From Streptomyces sp. AcH 505 (lineage in GTDB: Bacteria > Actinomycetota > Actinomycetes > Streptomycetales > Streptomycetaceae), in contig NZ_JTIY01000001.1 of NCBI RefSeq assembly GCF_000818175.1, positions 6,382,121 through 6,446,120 on the forward strand: a stretch of DNA of 64,000 nt, read 5' to 3'. Shown here piece after piece: positions 48,708 through 55,112 of this stretch. Each line of letters opens with the position of its first letter. Positions within the stretch are counted from its first letter, which is position 1. Below the pieces are notes generated by a model, which searched no databases, was not told the DNA's origin, and worked only from the letters and a program-made list of their open reading frames with translations. The position numbers and the translations under genes were made by a program.

Positions 48708-49568
48708 ATGTTCGACAACTTCGTGGCGGAGCACCGGCAGGTCGACGACGCGTCGATCTTCGTCCGCCACGCGGGGGAGGGGCCGCCGGTTCTGTTGCTG
48801 CACGGTCATCCCCGGACGTCAGCGACATGGCACCGCGTCGCACCGCAGCTGGTCCGGCGCGGCTTCACCGTCGTCTGCCCCGACCTGCGCGGATACGGTC
48901 GCTCGCGGGGCCCGGCGCCGACGGCGGACCACTCCGCCCACTCCAAGCGCGCCGTCGCGAACGACCTCGTGGCGGTGATGCGTTCGCTGGGACACGAACG
49001 GTTCGCACTGGCCGGTCACGATCGCGGCAGCTACGTGGCGTTCCGGCTCGCCCTCGACCACCCCGACGCGGTGTCACGCGTGGCGTTCCTGGACGGCGTG
49101 CCGCTCACCGAGCATCTCGCGCGCATCAGCGTGCAGTTCGCGACGCAGTGGTGGCACTGGTTCTTCTTCGCCCAGCCGGACATTCCGGAGCGCGTCATCA
49201 ACGCCGACCCGGACAGCTGGTACCACGGCGATCCGCTGAGCATGGGGCAGGAGAACTACGACGAGTGGCGTCAGGCCACGCGCAATCCCGCCGTGGTCCG
49301 GGCCATGCTGGAGGACTACCGGGCCGGACTCACGGTCGACCGGCAGGCGGAGGAGGCAGACCGGGCCGCCGGGGCGCGCCTCCGCTGCCCCGCGCTGATC
49401 CTGTGGTCCCTCCGCGACGATCTGGAGGATCTGTACGGCGACCCGGTGGCACCCTGGGCGTGCTGGGCCGACGACGTACACGGCCACGGGATCGACTCCG
49501 GGCACCACATGGCCGAAGAGGCGCCGGACGCCCTTGCCACCTCATTGGGTGACTTCTTCAGCGGCTGA
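48708..49568 (+). CDS. Alpha/beta hydrolase, haloacetate dehalogenase/epoxide hydrolase-like
   Basis: A 286-residue enzyme with oxyanion region LLLHGHPRTSATWHRVAPQL, DLRGYGRS, nucleophile elbow GHDRGS (Asp as nucleophile) and terminal His in DSGHHMAEEAPD. An aspartate nucleophile is the mark of dehalogenases and epoxide hydrolases rather than esterases. The start ATG at 48708 (MFDNFVAEHRQV) has a G-rich ribosome site; longer frames to the left are not conserved. The natural substrate is unknown. Confidence 0.85.
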   Translation: MFDNFVAEHRQVDDASIFVRHAGEGPPVLLLHGHPRTSATWHRVAPQLVRRGFTVVCPDLRGYGRSRGPAPTADHSAHSKRAVANDLVAVMRSLGHERFALAGHDRGSYVAFRLALDHPDAVSRVAFLDGVPLTEHLARISVQFATQWWHWFFFAQPDIPERVINADPDSWYHGDPLSMGQENYDEWRQATRNPAVVRAMLEDYRAGLTVDRQAEEADRAAGARLRCPALILWSLRDDLEDLYGDPVAPWACWADDVHGHGIDSGHHMAEEAPDALATSLGDFFSG

Positions 49569-49587
49569 GAAGGACAGCGAATCGCCC

Positions 49588-49632
49588 GTCGAGCCGGTCG
49601 AGCCCGTCGAGCCGGTCGAGCCCGTCGGGGCG
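49588..49632 (+). repeat. 9-bp tandem repeat ahead of cobF
   Basis: Four units of GTCGAGCCS (49588-49596, 49597-49605, 49606-49614, 49615-49623) and a degenerate fifth (GTCGGGGCG) follow each other. They fill the space between the hydrolase stop and the cobF ribosome site. The units would read Val-Glu-Pro in the cobF frame but lie upstream of its likely start. Confidence 0.75.
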
Positions 49633-49668
49633 GGGCGGGTCGGGCCGGTCGAGGAGGACAATCGCCCC

Positions 49669-50463
49669 ATGAGCAACACTGAGGCGCGGCACCTCCTGGT
49701 CATCGGCATCGGGGCAGGGGACCCCGACCATCTGACACTCGCTGCCGTGAAGGCCATCGGCAGGGCGCAGGTCTTCTTCGTACTCGGCAAGGGTCCGGAG
49801 AAGAACGCCCTGACACAGCTGCGCCGGGACATGCTCGACGAGCACGCGTCCGGCCCGTACCGCGTCGTCGAGGCCGACGACCCCTGGCGTGACCGCACTC
49901 AGGACGAACGGTCCGGCTACACGACGGCGGTCCACGACTGGCGGCAGCGGCGCGCCGACATCTGCGAACGGCTCATCCGCGACGAACTCGCCCCTGGCCG
50001 GTGCGGGGCGTTCCTGGTGTGGGGCGATCCCTCGCTGTACGACAGCACGCTCGGCATCCTGGAAGACATCAAGGCCCGCGGCGACGTGGCCTTCGACCAC
50101 GAGGTGATCCCGGGCATCAGCAGCGTCTCCGCCCTGGCCGCGCGCCACCGCGTCAACCTCAACCAGGTCGGCCGCCCCGTCCACATCACCCCCGGCCGCC
50201 GACTCGCCGAAGGCTTCCCCGACGACGACGGCGACATCGTCGTCATGCTCGACGGGCACCAGACGTTCCGGCATCTGACGGGCAGGGGCCTATGGATCTA
50301 CTGGGGTGCCTACATCGGCACGCCGGACGAGATCCTGGTGGCCGGGCCGCTGGACGAGGTCTCCGACCACATCCAGCAGGTACGCGCCGAAGCGCGGGCC
50401 CGGCACGGCTGGATCATGGACACCTACTTGTTGCGCCCCGGTCCCGTTGGCACGAACGGCTGA
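49669..50463 (+). CDS. cobF: Precorrin-6A synthase (deacetylating)
   Basis: A 264-residue SAM-dependent methyltransferase of the aerobic cobalamin pathway, which methylates C-1 of precorrin-5 with loss of the acetyl group. The start LLVIGIGAGDPDHLTLAAVKAIGRAQVFFVLGKG and the block GAFLVWGDPSLYDST...VIPGISSVSALAARH are characteristic of CobF. ATG at 49669 follows GAGGAGGA by about 10 bases; upstream in-frame sequence is a repeat and is not included. No other cob gene or B12 riboswitch adjoins it, so it is an isolated member of the pathway here. Confidence 0.9.
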   Translation: MSNTEARHLLVIGIGAGDPDHLTLAAVKAIGRAQVFFVLGKGPEKNALTQLRRDMLDEHASGPYRVVEADDPWRDRTQDERSGYTTAVHDWRQRRADICERLIRDELAPGRCGAFLVWGDPSLYDSTLGILEDIKARGDVAFDHEVIPGISSVSALAARHRVNLNQVGRPVHITPGRRLAEGFPDDDGDIVVMLDGHQTFRHLTGRGLWIYWGAYIGTPDEILVAGPLDEVSDHIQQVRAEARARHGWIMDTYLLRPGPVGTNG

Positions 50464-50496
50464 GGAAGCCCCTCGAACGAACACCCGTCGACCGGT

Positions 50497-50536
50497 GGAA
50501 GGCCCGGGGCCCGGGGTACTGGGCCCCTGACCTTCC
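50497..50536. terminator. Hairpin terminator between cobF and the MIB operon
   Basis: GGAAGG and CCGGGGCCC-type bases (50497-50512) pair with GGGCCCC and CCTTCC (50521-50536), giving a long GC-rich stem with a small internal mismatch. It lies between convergent genes and can serve both. There is no marked T-run. Confidence 0.6.
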
Positions 50537-50561
50537 GCCGGCGGTCGGCGCTCCGCGACGG

Positions 50562-51440
50562 TCAGACGCGGTCCGCCGCGATCAGGACGTACTGGAACGA
50601 GCCGTCCCTGTACGAGTTGATGAACGCCTCCTCGATGCCGGTGACCAGTTCGGACGTGGCCCGTAGCTCCCAGTACGGCAGCGTCTCGGGCGTCAGGTCG
50701 ATGACCGCCTGCGGGACGAGACGGTGGTCGGCCATGGCCTTCAGATACTCCCTGCGCGAGTGGATGTTGCACTCGAAGTGCGCGTTGATCTGGGATACCC
50801 ACTTCGACGGCTGGCCGTAACGCGGGTTCCAGCAGCCGGTGATGGTGACGTACCGGCCGCCGACGGCGAGCACGCGCGAGTGTTCGGCGAACAGGTCGTC
50901 CAGATCGACGTACATGCTCGACTCGTTGTTCCAGGAGCCGGCGGCCTGCCCGGTCTCGAAGGGCGTGTCGAGCATGTTGCACACCCGGGCGCGGACGTGG
51001 TCGTCGATGCCCAGTTCATGGGCGCGGCGGTTGGCGAAGTCGGCCTGCTTGGCCGACAGGGTGACACCTTCGACGTTGCAGCCGAACCGCTGATGGGCCA
51101 TCACCATCGAACCGCCCCGGCCGCACCCGGCGTCCACCAGTGTGTCCGCGCGCCCGATCGAACCGAGCTGGTCCAGCAGGACTTCGGCCTGCGCCGACTC
51201 CAGCCGGTGCAGCTCGGCGATCAGCCTCTTCTCGTGGCCGCTCTCGTGCGCCTTCCCGAGGGCGGCGTGGTCGACGTCGCCGATGCCGTAGTGGTGGTGG
51301 TAGAGCCCGTCCACGTCGCCGAGGCGCAGGTTCACCGGCCGCGCCTCGCCGTCCCAGTACCGGGCGATGTCACCCTGGTAGGGAGAGGCGGGGGTGGGGA
51401 TGAACACGGAGGTACCGTTGGTGAGTTCGGTGCTGGTCAC
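50562..51440 (-). CDS. mtf: Geranyl diphosphate 2-C-methyltransferase (2-methylisoborneol pathway)
   Basis: A 292-residue SAM-dependent methyltransferase that adds a methyl group to C-2 of geranyl diphosphate, the first step to 2-methylisoborneol. Motif I is VDAGCGRGG (102-110), followed by CNVEGVTLSAKQADFANRRAHELG and NNESSMYVDLDDLFAEHSRVLAVGGRYV, all closely matching known MIB methyltransferases. The GTG start has AGGAG ten bases upstream. It begins 15 bp after the terpene synthase stop, so the two are in one operon with the encapsulin-like gene. Confidence 0.95.
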   Translation of the reverse strand: MTSTELTNGTSVFIPTPASPYQGDIARYWDGEARPVNLRLGDVDGLYHHHYGIGDVDHAALGKAHESGHEKRLIAELHRLESAQAEVLLDQLGSIGRADTLVDAGCGRGGSMVMAHQRFGCNVEGVTLSAKQADFANRRAHELGIDDHVRARVCNMLDTPFETGQAAGSWNNESSMYVDLDDLFAEHSRVLAVGGRYVTITGCWNPRYGQPSKWVSQINAHFECNIHSRREYLKAMADHRLVPQAVIDLTPETLPYWELRATSELVTGIEEAFINSYRDGSFQYVLIAADRV

Positions 51441-51455
51441 AGTGAGATGCGCTCC

Positions 51456-52631
51456 TTACCAGAAGTCCGGCAGGCTGTACCGGTAGGTGTTTGTCCGGTG
51501 CCAGTAGTGGTTGCCGTCGACCCACACGGCCACGCCCCGGAGGAAACGCAGCACGTTCGGGACGGGGCAGGCGGCCGCCAGTGCCGCGGCCTCGGCTTCG
51601 AACTCGTGCATGAGTTCGTTGTGGACCTCGACCGCCTTCAGATAGGCGTCCTGGTCGGACAGGCCTTCCCGTTCGGCGATCACCACGGGCAGGTTGAGAT
51701 GCCGGCCCGGGCTGTTGAGTTCCTTGGTGTACGAGTAGAGGTCGTTGACGATGGTGGTGGCGTTGCCCGCCAGTGCGATGACCCGCTGCATGGCCGGCTG
51801 GGCATGCAGGTCGGCGGGGAGTTCGTAGCCGCCGACGGTGTCGGTGATGGTGGGGCAGGGGCGGAAGTTGTTGAACTGGCGCATCGCCAGGTACTCCCAC
51901 ACCTCGGGCACGTGCTCCGTCTCGGACCACGCGGCCTCCGCCAGGTAGCCGAGATGCAGCCGCGCCATGTCGTGCCGGTACCGGTCGGCCTGTGAGGCGG
52001 TGGACTGCTCGGTGAAGTAGGCCATGGCGGAGCTGTAGGCGCGCCGTGGGCCGTCCGACTGCAGCGACGCGGCCCAGGCCGGTTCGTACTCCTTCGTGGT
52101 GTGCAGGGTGTCGAGCGCCGTGTGCGCCAGCAGGAGGCGGCTGCCCAGGCCCACGGGTGAGCCGCCGTGGTCCTCGCAGTAGCAGTCGTCGACGGCGTTC
52201 TCCGCGACCATCAGCCGGGTGGCGATCATCAGGTGGTCGACGGTGGGCGCGTCCGGATGGCAAGCGACCATGTAGCGGCCGACGGAGAAGCCGTCGAACT
52301 GGTCCTCCCACTCGGGCGGGAACGCCTGGACCTCGTCCACCGCCCATTCCTTGATCCTGCGGCTGACCTCCGCCACCCGCGCCGCGTCGGGCTCCGCCAC
52401 CCGATGGTGGTAGAGCCCCGGGATCGGTGTGCCCTCCGGTGCGCTGTCCGGTGTGGTCTCCGGCGCGGCCTCCTCCGGCGCCCCCTCCGCCGGTGGGCCG
52501 GGATCGGGAGGAGCCGGTGGCTCCGCACGCCGGCCTAAGTGCAGACCGGTCGTGCCGAGACCGCTCGGGCCGCACAGGAGCCGTTCCAGGACGGGGCTCA
52601 GCTGCAGAGGGGAGGGCCCAGGATCGGGCAT
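51456..52631 (-). CDS. tpc: 2-Methylisoborneol synthase, presumed encapsulin cargo
   Basis: A 391-residue class I terpene cyclase converting 2-methylgeranyl diphosphate to 2-methylisoborneol. Metal-binding motifs are Asp148-Asp149 within DDCYCED and the NSE triad Asn296/Ser300/Glu304 in NDLYSYTKE. The C terminus WHRTNTYRYSLPDFW is typical. Residues 1-70 are Pro/Ala/Glu-rich and probably disordered; LERLLCGPSGLGTTGLHL (15-32) stands out as a conserved-looking linear motif. In Family 2B encapsulin systems such N-terminal regions direct the synthase into the shell. The region is shorter than in S. coelicolor, whose synthase is about 440 residues (from memory). AGGAG lies seven bases before the ATG. 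Confidence 0.95.
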   Translation of the reverse strand: MPDPGPSPLQLSPVLERLLCGPSGLGTTGLHLGRRAEPPAPPDPGPPAEGAPEEAAPETTPDSAPEGTPIPGLYHHRVAEPDAARVAEVSRRIKEWAVDEVQAFPPEWEDQFDGFSVGRYMVACHPDAPTVDHLMIATRLMVAENAVDDCYCEDHGGSPVGLGSRLLLAHTALDTLHTTKEYEPAWAASLQSDGPRRAYSSAMAYFTEQSTASQADRYRHDMARLHLGYLAEAAWSETEHVPEVWEYLAMRQFNNFRPCPTITDTVGGYELPADLHAQPAMQRVIALAGNATTIVNDLYSYTKELNSPGRHLNLPVVIAEREGLSDQDAYLKAVEVHNELMHEFEAEAAALAAACPVPNVLRFLRGVAVWVDGNHYWHRTNTYRYSLPDFW

Positions 52632-52682
52632 CCGTAACTCCTAGGTGAGGTGGTGGGTTTCGCCACGGGACCGATGGGGCGG

Positions 52683-52697
52683 CCTAGGCCCTGTCCG
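52683..52697. repeat. Short match to the MITE end at the encapsulin stop codon
   Basis: CTAGGCCCTGTCCGG is identical to the left flank plus terminal end of the MITE at 25184-25198, and the match extends one base outward (CC). It supplies the encapsulin gene's stop codon (CTA on the plus strand) and last four codons. No opposite end is found nearby, so it is either a solo remnant or chance similarity. Confidence 0.4.
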
Positions 52698-54102
52698 GCC
52701 GGTGCGCGATCTGTACGTTCTCCAGCACGCCGAGCGCGTCGGGCAGGAGGATCGCCGCTGAGTAGTAGGTGGTGACCAGGTACGAGATGATCGCCTGCTC
52801 GTTGATGCCCGTGAAGCGCACGGACAGGCCCGGCTCGTACTCCTCCGGCAGCCCGGTCTGCCGCAGACCGATGACCCCCTGGTTGTCCTCGCCGGTGCGC
52901 ATGGCGAGGATCGAGCTGGTGTTCTCCTTGCTGACGGGAATCTTGTTGCACGGCAGGATGGGGACCCCGCGCCAGGCCGGCACCCGCTGGCCGCCGAGGT
53001 CGATGTGGTCGGGATGGAGCCCGTAGGCGTTCAACCCGCGCCCGATCGCCGCGATCGTCCGGGGGTGGGCCAGGAAGAGTTTGGTGCCACGGCGGCGGCA
53101 GAGCAGATCGTCGAGGTCGTCAGGGGTGGGCGGCCCGGAGTGGGTCTCGATCCGCTGTTTGAAGGCGGCGTTGTGGAGCAGACCGAACTCGCGGTTGTTG
53201 ATCAGCTCGTACTCCTGGCGCTCGCGCAACGCCTCGATCGTGAGCCTCAGTTGCTCCTCGGTCTGGTTCATCGGGTCGTTGTAGAGGTCGGCGACCCGGG
53301 TGTGGATGCGCAGCACCGTCTGCGCGACGGAGAGTTCGTACTCGCGCGGGTGGAGTTCGTAGTCGACGAAGGCACCCGGCAGTTGGGCCTCGCCGGTGTG
53401 CCCTGCCGACATGGCGATCTCGGCCTCGCCGTGCCGGTTCTGCCGCCGGTCGGCGCGCGGGCCGAACTCCTGCAGATGGGACCGCAGGCCCGGCGCCGAG
53501 GACACCACGGCGTCGAAGTCGGCGCGGGACAGGGTGAGCAAGGTGCCGGCGGTCTGGGCGGTGGCGGTGCAGTCCCACGTGGCGTCGGTGTCCAGCAGGG
53601 CGTTCTCACCGAAGCTGCCGCCGTCGGCGAGCGTGGCGACGGTCACCTCGTCGCCGTACTTCCCGACGGAGGTCTGTTTGATCCTGCCGTGGGCGATCAG
53701 CTGGATCTGCTCGGCGGGGGAGCCGCGTTCGGCCAGCACCTCACCCGCGCGGAACTCACGCTGGACGCACCGGCCGGCCAGCGCCGCCAGTACCTCGTCG
53801 TCCTCGAAGCCGCGCAGCGGAGCCAGTTCGCACAGCTCACGGGGGATCACGCGGACATTCCCGCCGTCCTGGACGAACTCGATCCGACCGTCGCCGACGG
53901 TGTAGTTCAGCCGACGGTTCACCCGGTAGGTGCCGCCCTTGGTCTCCACCCAGGGGAGCATCCGCAGCAGCCAGCGGGAGGTGATCTCCTGCATCTGCGG
54001 GGCGGACTTGGTCGTCGTGGCGAGATTGCGCGCGGCGGCGGTGCCCAGGCTGGACTGCGGAGGCGACTCCGCCGGGGCTTCCGGACTGGTCTCTACGGTC
54101 AT
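52684..54102 (-). CDS. cnb: Family 2B encapsulin shell protein with inserted cyclic-nucleotide-binding fold (EshA-like)
   Basis: A 472-residue protein, often annotated as a Crp-like nucleotide-binding protein. It has no DNA-binding helix-turn-helix. Residues 20-85 and 240-472 are the HK97-type shell parts ([98 protein letters not shown]). A CNB domain is inserted at about 92-212 ([40 protein letters not shown]). The usual phosphate-binding Arg of the CNB cassette is replaced (ATWDCTA). It would assemble into a protein shell around the downstream-encoded MIB synthase. The gene leads the operon; a synthase start lies 52 bp after its stop. Confidence 0.92.
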
Positions 54103-54350
54103 CGGGCGACTGCTCCTTTACGACGGCGGTGATGGGCGTGCGCGCGCCAGGCGAGAAAAGAGGAGATAGGGGGAGTTATGGGGAGACAGAGGGTGAATCG
54201 CTGGCAATCCGTCCAGACACCAAGGAACCGTAACGGGGCGTGTGCCCAACTCGCCCGGGATGCCGGTTGAGTTACTTCGATGCGGCGATCTCGCCACGCA
54301 TCAGGTTTATCGCCGTGACCGGCGGTATACGGACTGGGTGAGCCCGGCCC
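54103..54350. other. Intergenic leader/promoter region of the MIB-encapsulin operon
   Basis: About 250 bp lie upstream of the shell-protein gene, ending in the adjacent hydrolase stop. AAAGGAG (10 bases ahead of the encapsulin ATG) is the ribosome site. The 54160-54210 stretch is unusually purine-rich on the plus strand (pyrimidine-rich in the transcript). No clear -35/-10 pair, palindrome or gene is visible, so regulation of the operon cannot be read from it. Confidence 0.5.
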
Positions 54351-55112
54351 TCACCGGTGGTCGGTGAGGAAATTCACGATCGAAGTGGTGAACTCCGGTG
54401 CCGCGACGGCCGTCCCGTGGTTTCCCGGCACCACGGCGCGCGTGCCGTGGGGCAGCGCCTCTGCCAGTGCGTCCGCCGAGTCGGCCCGCTCGTCCTCGCT
54501 GCCCACCATCACAAGGGTCGGTACCTGAACGCCGCCGAGCAGTTCCACCGGCGTGGCGACGATCGAATCCAGCACATGTACGAGCGCGACCGGGTCCCCG
54601 CCGCCCGCCAGGAGCCGTTGCGCCGCCTGCTCCTCCCGCGAACCCGGCGTGAAGGACGCCGATCCTGCGTAGACCTGCCGCATGAACGAGCCCGCACCGC
54701 CGCCGAAGCCGAGCACCTGCCGCAGCCCTTGGCCCGCGGCCACCGCCCGCCCGGGTGTGGCGCCGCGCACCAGCATCCGCACCACGATGCGCGCCCCCAG
54801 CGAGTAGCCGCCGAGGTCGTAGTCGTCCAGCCCCAGGTGGTCGAGGAGCGCGAAGGCGTCGTCGGTCAGTATGTCGGCGGGATACGCCTCGGCCTCATGG
54901 GGCTTCGCGCTCGCGCCGTGGCCGCGGAAGTCCGGCAGGATCACGCGGTAGCCGTGCGCCGCGATCGTCTCGGCCTGGCCGTGCCGCAGCCACAGCGTCG
55001 CGTCGGTGGAGATGCCGTGCAGCAGGACCAGCGGCCTGCCCTCGCCCAGTTCCCGGTAGCCGAGGCGGACACCGTCACGGGCGGGGAAGAAGGACACGGC
55101 GGGGCTCGGCAT
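54351..55112 (-). CDS. Alpha/beta hydrolase (3-oxoadipate enol-lactonase-like)
   Basis: A 253-residue enzyme with the oxyanion segment LVLLHGISTDATLW, nucleophile elbow GGYSLGAR (Ser), Asp in GSEDERAD and His in PGNHGTAV. The fold is the PcaD/BioH-like group; the substrate is not predictable. On the minus strand TATGCT lies seven bases before the ATG at 55112, suggesting a leaderless transcript; an alternative ATG at 55124 is inside that element. Confidence 0.85.
   Translation of the reverse strand: MPSPAVSFFPARDGVRLGYRELGEGRPLVLLHGISTDATLWLRHGQAETIAAHGYRVILPDFRGHGASAKPHEAEAYPADILTDDAFALLDHLGLDDYDLGGYSLGARIVVRMLVRGATPGRAVAAGQGLRQVLGFGGGAGSFMRQVYAGSASFTPGSREEQAAQRLLAGGGDPVALVHVLDSIVATPVELLGGVQVPTLVMVGSEDERADSADALAEALPHGTRAVVPGNHGTAVAAPEFTTSIVNFLTDHR

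Follow-up and report, generated by a model that had tools for sequence, protein, structure and literature searches.

The 64,000-nucleotide stretch of Streptomyces sp. AcH 505 analysed here, termed in its entirety the window (contig NZ_JTIY01000001.1, positions 6,382,121 to 6,446,120), has on its minus strand three tandem genes that we take, with a probability of about 0.9, to belong to the eshA-mibA-mibB type of 2-methylisoborneol (2-MIB) operon already known from Streptomyces, i.e., an encapsulin shell, a 2-MIB synthase loaded into it and a methyltransferase most likely outside it. 2-MIB gives soil its smell and taints drinking water, and encapsulins holding biosynthetic enzymes are a young field of which this operon is one further instance. 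The genes are:

52684..54102, minus strand: shell gene, Family 2B encapsulin (EshA type), 472 amino acids (NCBIfam NF041163, encap_f2b, 755.7 bits, cut-off 400; PDB 9bhu)

51456..52631, minus strand: 2-MIB synthase, likely cargo, 391 amino acids (NCBIfam NF041167, f2_encap_cargo2, 495.8 bits, cut-off 400; PDB 3v1x, E 1.6e-191)

50562..51440, minus strand: geranyl diphosphate (GPP) 2-C-methyltransferase, 292 amino acids, without cargo motif (NCBIfam NF041943, GPPMT_Stmyces, 472.7 bits, cut-off 400; PDB 4f84)

The original prediction had claimed an operon at 50562-54102, which are exactly the outer gene ends, and the order it gave, shell then 2-MIB synthase then GPP methyltransferase, is borne out by the NCBIfam families and the PDB matches. 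The gap between the shell and synthase genes is 52 bases and that between the synthase and methyltransferase genes 15. Could such a grouping be fortuitous? In a survey sample of 150 Streptomyces genomes, where the counts are of families scoring over the NCBIfam cut-off, the methyltransferase family is found in 81 and the cargo-cyclase family in the identical 81, so the grouping is not due to chance. Of 93 stretches fetched (L035-L127), two with methyltransferase matches only below the cut-off (L122, L123) were excluded, and the operon counts accordingly refer to 91 fetched loci and the window, 92 in all. Within the fetched stretch the methyltransferase gene is accompanied by a cyclase gene at 90 of these loci and by a shell gene at 78; the complete trio is present at 76, all but one of which have it on a single strand (75). 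Score-based labels set up for the present analysis divide the 92 into operon classes A (42 loci, the window's type), B (23) and C (27).

The product of the first gene, well over the cut-off for encap_f2b, is below it for encap_f2a (347.8 bits, cut-off 380). In a PDB sequence search its closest solved structure is 9bhu, titled as the Family 2B encapsulin shell of Streptomyces griseus, which matches nearly the full length (residues 1-469 to 1-469, E 6e-248), and next come 9bix and 9bje, the two-component shells of Streptomyces lydicus; family score and near full-length match together uphold the proposed Family 2B type. Family 2A shells, which are without the insert, match on either side of the cNMP_binding fold, at residues 15-66 and 227-466, and HK97-type segments flanking an inserted cyclic-nucleotide-binding (CNB) fold, the feature on which the original prediction had leaned, are thus present:

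53905..54060, minus strand: N-terminal shell segment (N-arm, start of E-loop), residues 15-66, from the Family 2A shell matches

53500..53760, minus strand: inserted cyclic-nucleotide-binding fold, cNMP_binding, residues 115-201 (Pfam PF00027, 60.7 bits)

52705..53424, minus strand: C-terminal HK97-type shell segment, residues 227-466 (6x8m residues 59-298; Pfam SrpI-like)

The N-terminal segment matches residues 8-59 of the Family 2A shell 8t6r, about the same stretch is matched by 8wol and 9ksl, and residues 3-54 of 6x8m align to residues 12-63. SrpI-like itself covers residues 217-466 at 453.9 bits (cut-off 22.8). As in Family 2B, a cargo gene with a disordered extension lies 52 bases downstream of the shell gene.

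That the 391-residue protein encoded there is a 2-MIB synthase, its product being assigned by family and structure matches, is supported, and its metal-binding residues D148, D149, E153, N296, D297, S300 and E304 are invariant among 23 aligned cyclases. Its residues 1-66 have a predicted local distance difference test score (pLDDT) under 50, and for its first 81 residues no PDB chain matched at E up to 10. Within this stretch is what is likely, judging by its sequence, the cargo-loading motif:

52551..52571, minus strand: GPSGLGT motif, synthase residues 21-27, in the N-terminal low-confidence stretch 1-66

Passages of a 2021 paper (PMC8346489) describe GPTGLGT, the consensus in cyclases like 2-MIB synthase, as a possible targeting sequence. 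Scanned as GPxGxG(T/S/A), the motif is in 61 of the 66 type A and type C cyclases. The type A share is 40/42, the frame being truncated by a contig end in both misses, and that of type C 21/24, rising to 24/24 with a looser first and last letter. These type C figures leave aside L109, which scored as C, has an N-terminus of the B type and was counted with B for the motif counts. Among shuffled N-terminal regions 83 of 13,200 have the motif.

Family 2B shells consist of 60 subunits in a T=1 arrangement about 28 nm across. The first gene's product would assemble into such a shell, and the synthase would be drawn in through the disordered N-terminal region bearing GPSGLGT. The methyltransferase, being without a region of that kind, would most likely methylate GPP outside; the resulting 2-methyl-GPP would enter through pores in the shell and 2-MIB would leave. 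Both the assembly of the shell in this strain and the loading of cargo here we infer from relatives. How close are those relatives? Beyond its full-length match the shell has 73% identity to S. griseus 9bhu over 257 structurally aligned residues, and no difference of kind is seen from the S. griseus shell and 2-MIB synthase system. The N-terminal region of the window's synthase is shorter than that of the 3v1x chain (the match begins at residue 11 of the one versus 95 of the other). The three genes are in the identical order to eshA-mibA-mibB of Streptomyces venezuelae, which passages of a 2019 paper (PMC6428758) describe as one operon, a direct target of BldC and activated by it. With the two-component Family 2B encapsulin of S. 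lydicus (9bix, 9bje; PMC12407261) the likeness is in the fold with its inserted CNB domain, but the window's locus has a single shell gene, the second one of the genome being far away. That second Family 2B shell gene (C1:932433-933782, 768.1 bits) is followed by a polyprenyl transferase gene that scores 496.9 bits (cut-off 450) with f2_encap_cargo4, a family of encapsulin cargo. Passages of PMC8346489 count 904 Family 2B operons that include a terpene cyclase, in many cases along with a C-methyltransferase, and predict the operon class to form nanocompartments, and the title of Andreas and Giessen 2024 (Nat Commun 15:9715) has biosynthesis compartmentalised inside a protein shell. The observation on the window is a correct rediscovery, such systems being already in print.

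As to the methyltransferase, its PDB matches are 4f84 (E 1.5e-166) and 3vc1, and the family match starts at residue 21. With only 20 residues preceding that match, and no cargo motif, the earlier claim that it is without the disordered N-terminal region of the synthase holds. Indeed a motif scan found the cargo motif in none of 94 methyltransferases, a count with which a position outside the shell agrees. Might the methyltransferase nevertheless be carried in bound to the synthase, with both enzymes inside? If the intermediate were channelled, the close coupling of methyltransferase and cyclase in the same 81 genomes would be accounted for. However, that co-occurrence is already expected from the pathway, and with the missing motif and the short N-terminus also counting against it, joint enclosure is unlikely. 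The presence of the motif in cyclases versus its absence from methyltransferases, together with the sister class described below, provides concrete constructs for testing.

A number of observations weigh against a shell that takes up the synthase and leaves the methyltransferase outside. Passages of PMC6428758, citing older work, have it that 2-MIB biosynthesis does not require EshA, and the shell is therefore not essential; the grouping of shell, synthase and methyltransferase as an operon stands on sequence grounds, but the phrase 'complete compartment for a volatile' in the original prediction is an overreach. From passages of PMC10520479, the Streptomyces coelicolor synthase without its N-terminal domain yields 238% of product, so that the domain also limits activity. 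The shell gene is absent from the fetched stretch at 14 of the 92 loci. Four of these were judged cut by contig ends (L081, L124, L126, L127), and for nine of the ten remaining a Family 2B shell is elsewhere in the genome; the tenth genome, G050, 82% complete and in 1770 contigs, gave no Family 2B shell match. Since such shells are found in 59 of 61 Streptomyces genomes (G008 and G050 being those without a match), their genome-wide presence is no strong evidence of pairing. Under a stricter pattern the 24 B-like cyclases (23 of class B plus L109) all lack a GPTGLGT-type motif, and geosmin synthases with the motif mostly do not have a shell nearby, so it is no sure sign of a neighbouring one. 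Modelling the shell fold with 42 Streptomyces sequences gave a model of low quality (mean pLDDT 57.0, predicted template modelling score 0.39). Of the structure prediction proposed earlier as a check against known Family 2B encapsulins, what stands is that 9bhu ranks first in a Foldseek search (E 1.4e-42), but with such a model fold matching adds little beyond sequence, and its matches were used only as agreement with the sequence evidence. VIA-align gave Z 18.2 and a root mean square deviation (rmsd) of 6.8 over 257 residues against 9bhu, and for the C-terminal part against the Family 2A shell 6x8m Z 16.5 and rmsd 3.5 over 120.

Do these points favour a shell that holds little synthase in vivo and has some other task, developmental or in storage, with the operon shared for regulation only? 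The reported dispensability of EshA and the direct control by BldC fit with that, as do the ten loci, away from contig ends, at which the enzyme genes are retained but the fetched stretch has no shell gene. Retention of the cargo motif in 61/66 cyclases and the compartmentalised biosynthesis stated in the 2024 title speak against it, and we regard it as quite improbable.

Older annotation would make the product of the first gene a transcription regulator of Crp type acting on the operon and not a shell, which is scarcely credible. The cNMP-binding fold is there, and for the proteins of 9bix, 9bje and 9bhu the PDB gives the names Crp/Fnr regulator or nucleotide-binding protein. But these structures are titled encapsulin shells, shell segments flank the fold, and a Pfam scan at E up to 10 (where the HMMER filters discard most weak matches) lists SrpI-like and cNMP_binding only and so no DNA-binding domain, in keeping with the helix-turn-helix previously noted as missing. 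Residue 176, at the position where cNMP binders usually carry a phosphate-binding arginine, is Trp, its column holding W 37, H 4, Y 1 and R 0 in the 42 aligned shells. On the flanking shell segments, the encapsulin structures and the lack of a DNA-binding domain in that scan we reject the transcription-factor reading. Passages of PMC12407261, citing Andreas and Giessen, state that cyclic nucleotides are not ligands of the Family 2B insert, and by analogy with these relatives the CNB fold of the window's shell probably does not bind cyclic AMP.

The sister class without the known motif merits description in its own right. It comprises 24 B-like loci (L094, L098, L100-L108, L110-L121 and L109), and the shell gene is beside the cyclase gene in 23 of them, counting L100 where it is in pieces. 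All but one of these cyclases (23/24) have LPGPP close to the N-terminus, versus 5/42 of type A and 0/24 of type C, and LPGPP is possibly another loading motif.

Several individual loci are of note for the state of their shell genes. From two window-type 2-MIB operons, L072 (genome G086) and L096 (G096), neither at a contig end, the shell gene is missing within the stretch; the cyclase motif is kept in both and other Family 2B shells are present in both genomes. In L092 (1782-3930, plus strand, G041:C124) a 716-residue frame runs from residues 1-327 of the shell straight into residues 8-391 of the synthase, perhaps through a genuine deletion, perhaps through an error of assembly, the contig being of 7602 bases in a 260-contig draft. 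The shell gene appears broken in L100 (G036:C2), where it is split over three frames with an internal stop, and in L044 (G040), where the N-terminal part is gone.

What might the cargo motif mimic? One notion is that in cyclases it imitates the N-terminal arm of the shell itself. Across 74 loci the shell arms read S-L-(G/S)-T-x-A-A-R-(N/Q), the L, both A and the R being invariant, and GLGTSAAR is in the disordered region of one cyclase class; the consensus given for geosmin-synthase-like cyclases in passages of PMC8346489 is GPTGLGTSAAR. Compared with the arm of their own shell, type C cyclases share a mean of 4.87 of 8 residues (shuffles 3.77) and type B cyclases 3.19 (shuffles 3.37). The type A figure is 4.49 (shuffles 3.49), the best matches being mostly away from the motif. 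The window's synthase shares 3 of 8 residues with the shell arm, a value reached by 85.5% of shuffles. The resemblance is mostly weak: type C lends the idea slight support, type B cyclases and the window's synthase lend it none. The idea was rejected, and imitation of the arm is on these sequences very doubtful. A literature search from which Andreas and Giessen 2024 was left out found, besides PMC8346489, no paper pairing 'encapsulin' with one of four motif strings or holding two of the strings. Were the imitation true, cargo would load by replacing a shell arm, the enzyme content of a shell would be fixed by how many arm sites are free, and geosmin synthases with GPTGLGTSAAR and no shell gene nearby might be loaded in trans. 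Of 60 geosmin-synthase-like proteins (L161-L215 among the loci), 29 have a GPTGLGTSAAR-like version of the motif. A shell gene is in the fetched stretch for 1 of these 29 versus 4 of the 31 without the motif (Fisher p 0.35; contig ends shorten 4 of the 60 stretches), so that in geosmin synthases the motif failed to indicate a neighbouring shell. The two genomes without a shell match, G008 and G050, are also those in which a geosmin-synthase match is missing.

Searches of plasmids gave 32 records for the shell and 6 for the methyltransferase, and no new kind of operon was taken further from them. A scan of 50400-54500 of the window for the sigma-70 consensus gave no site, which is uninformative on BldC. 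The convergent neighbour of the methyltransferase gene, at 49534-50463 on the plus strand, encodes a precorrin-6A synthase (CobF, 339.1 bits).

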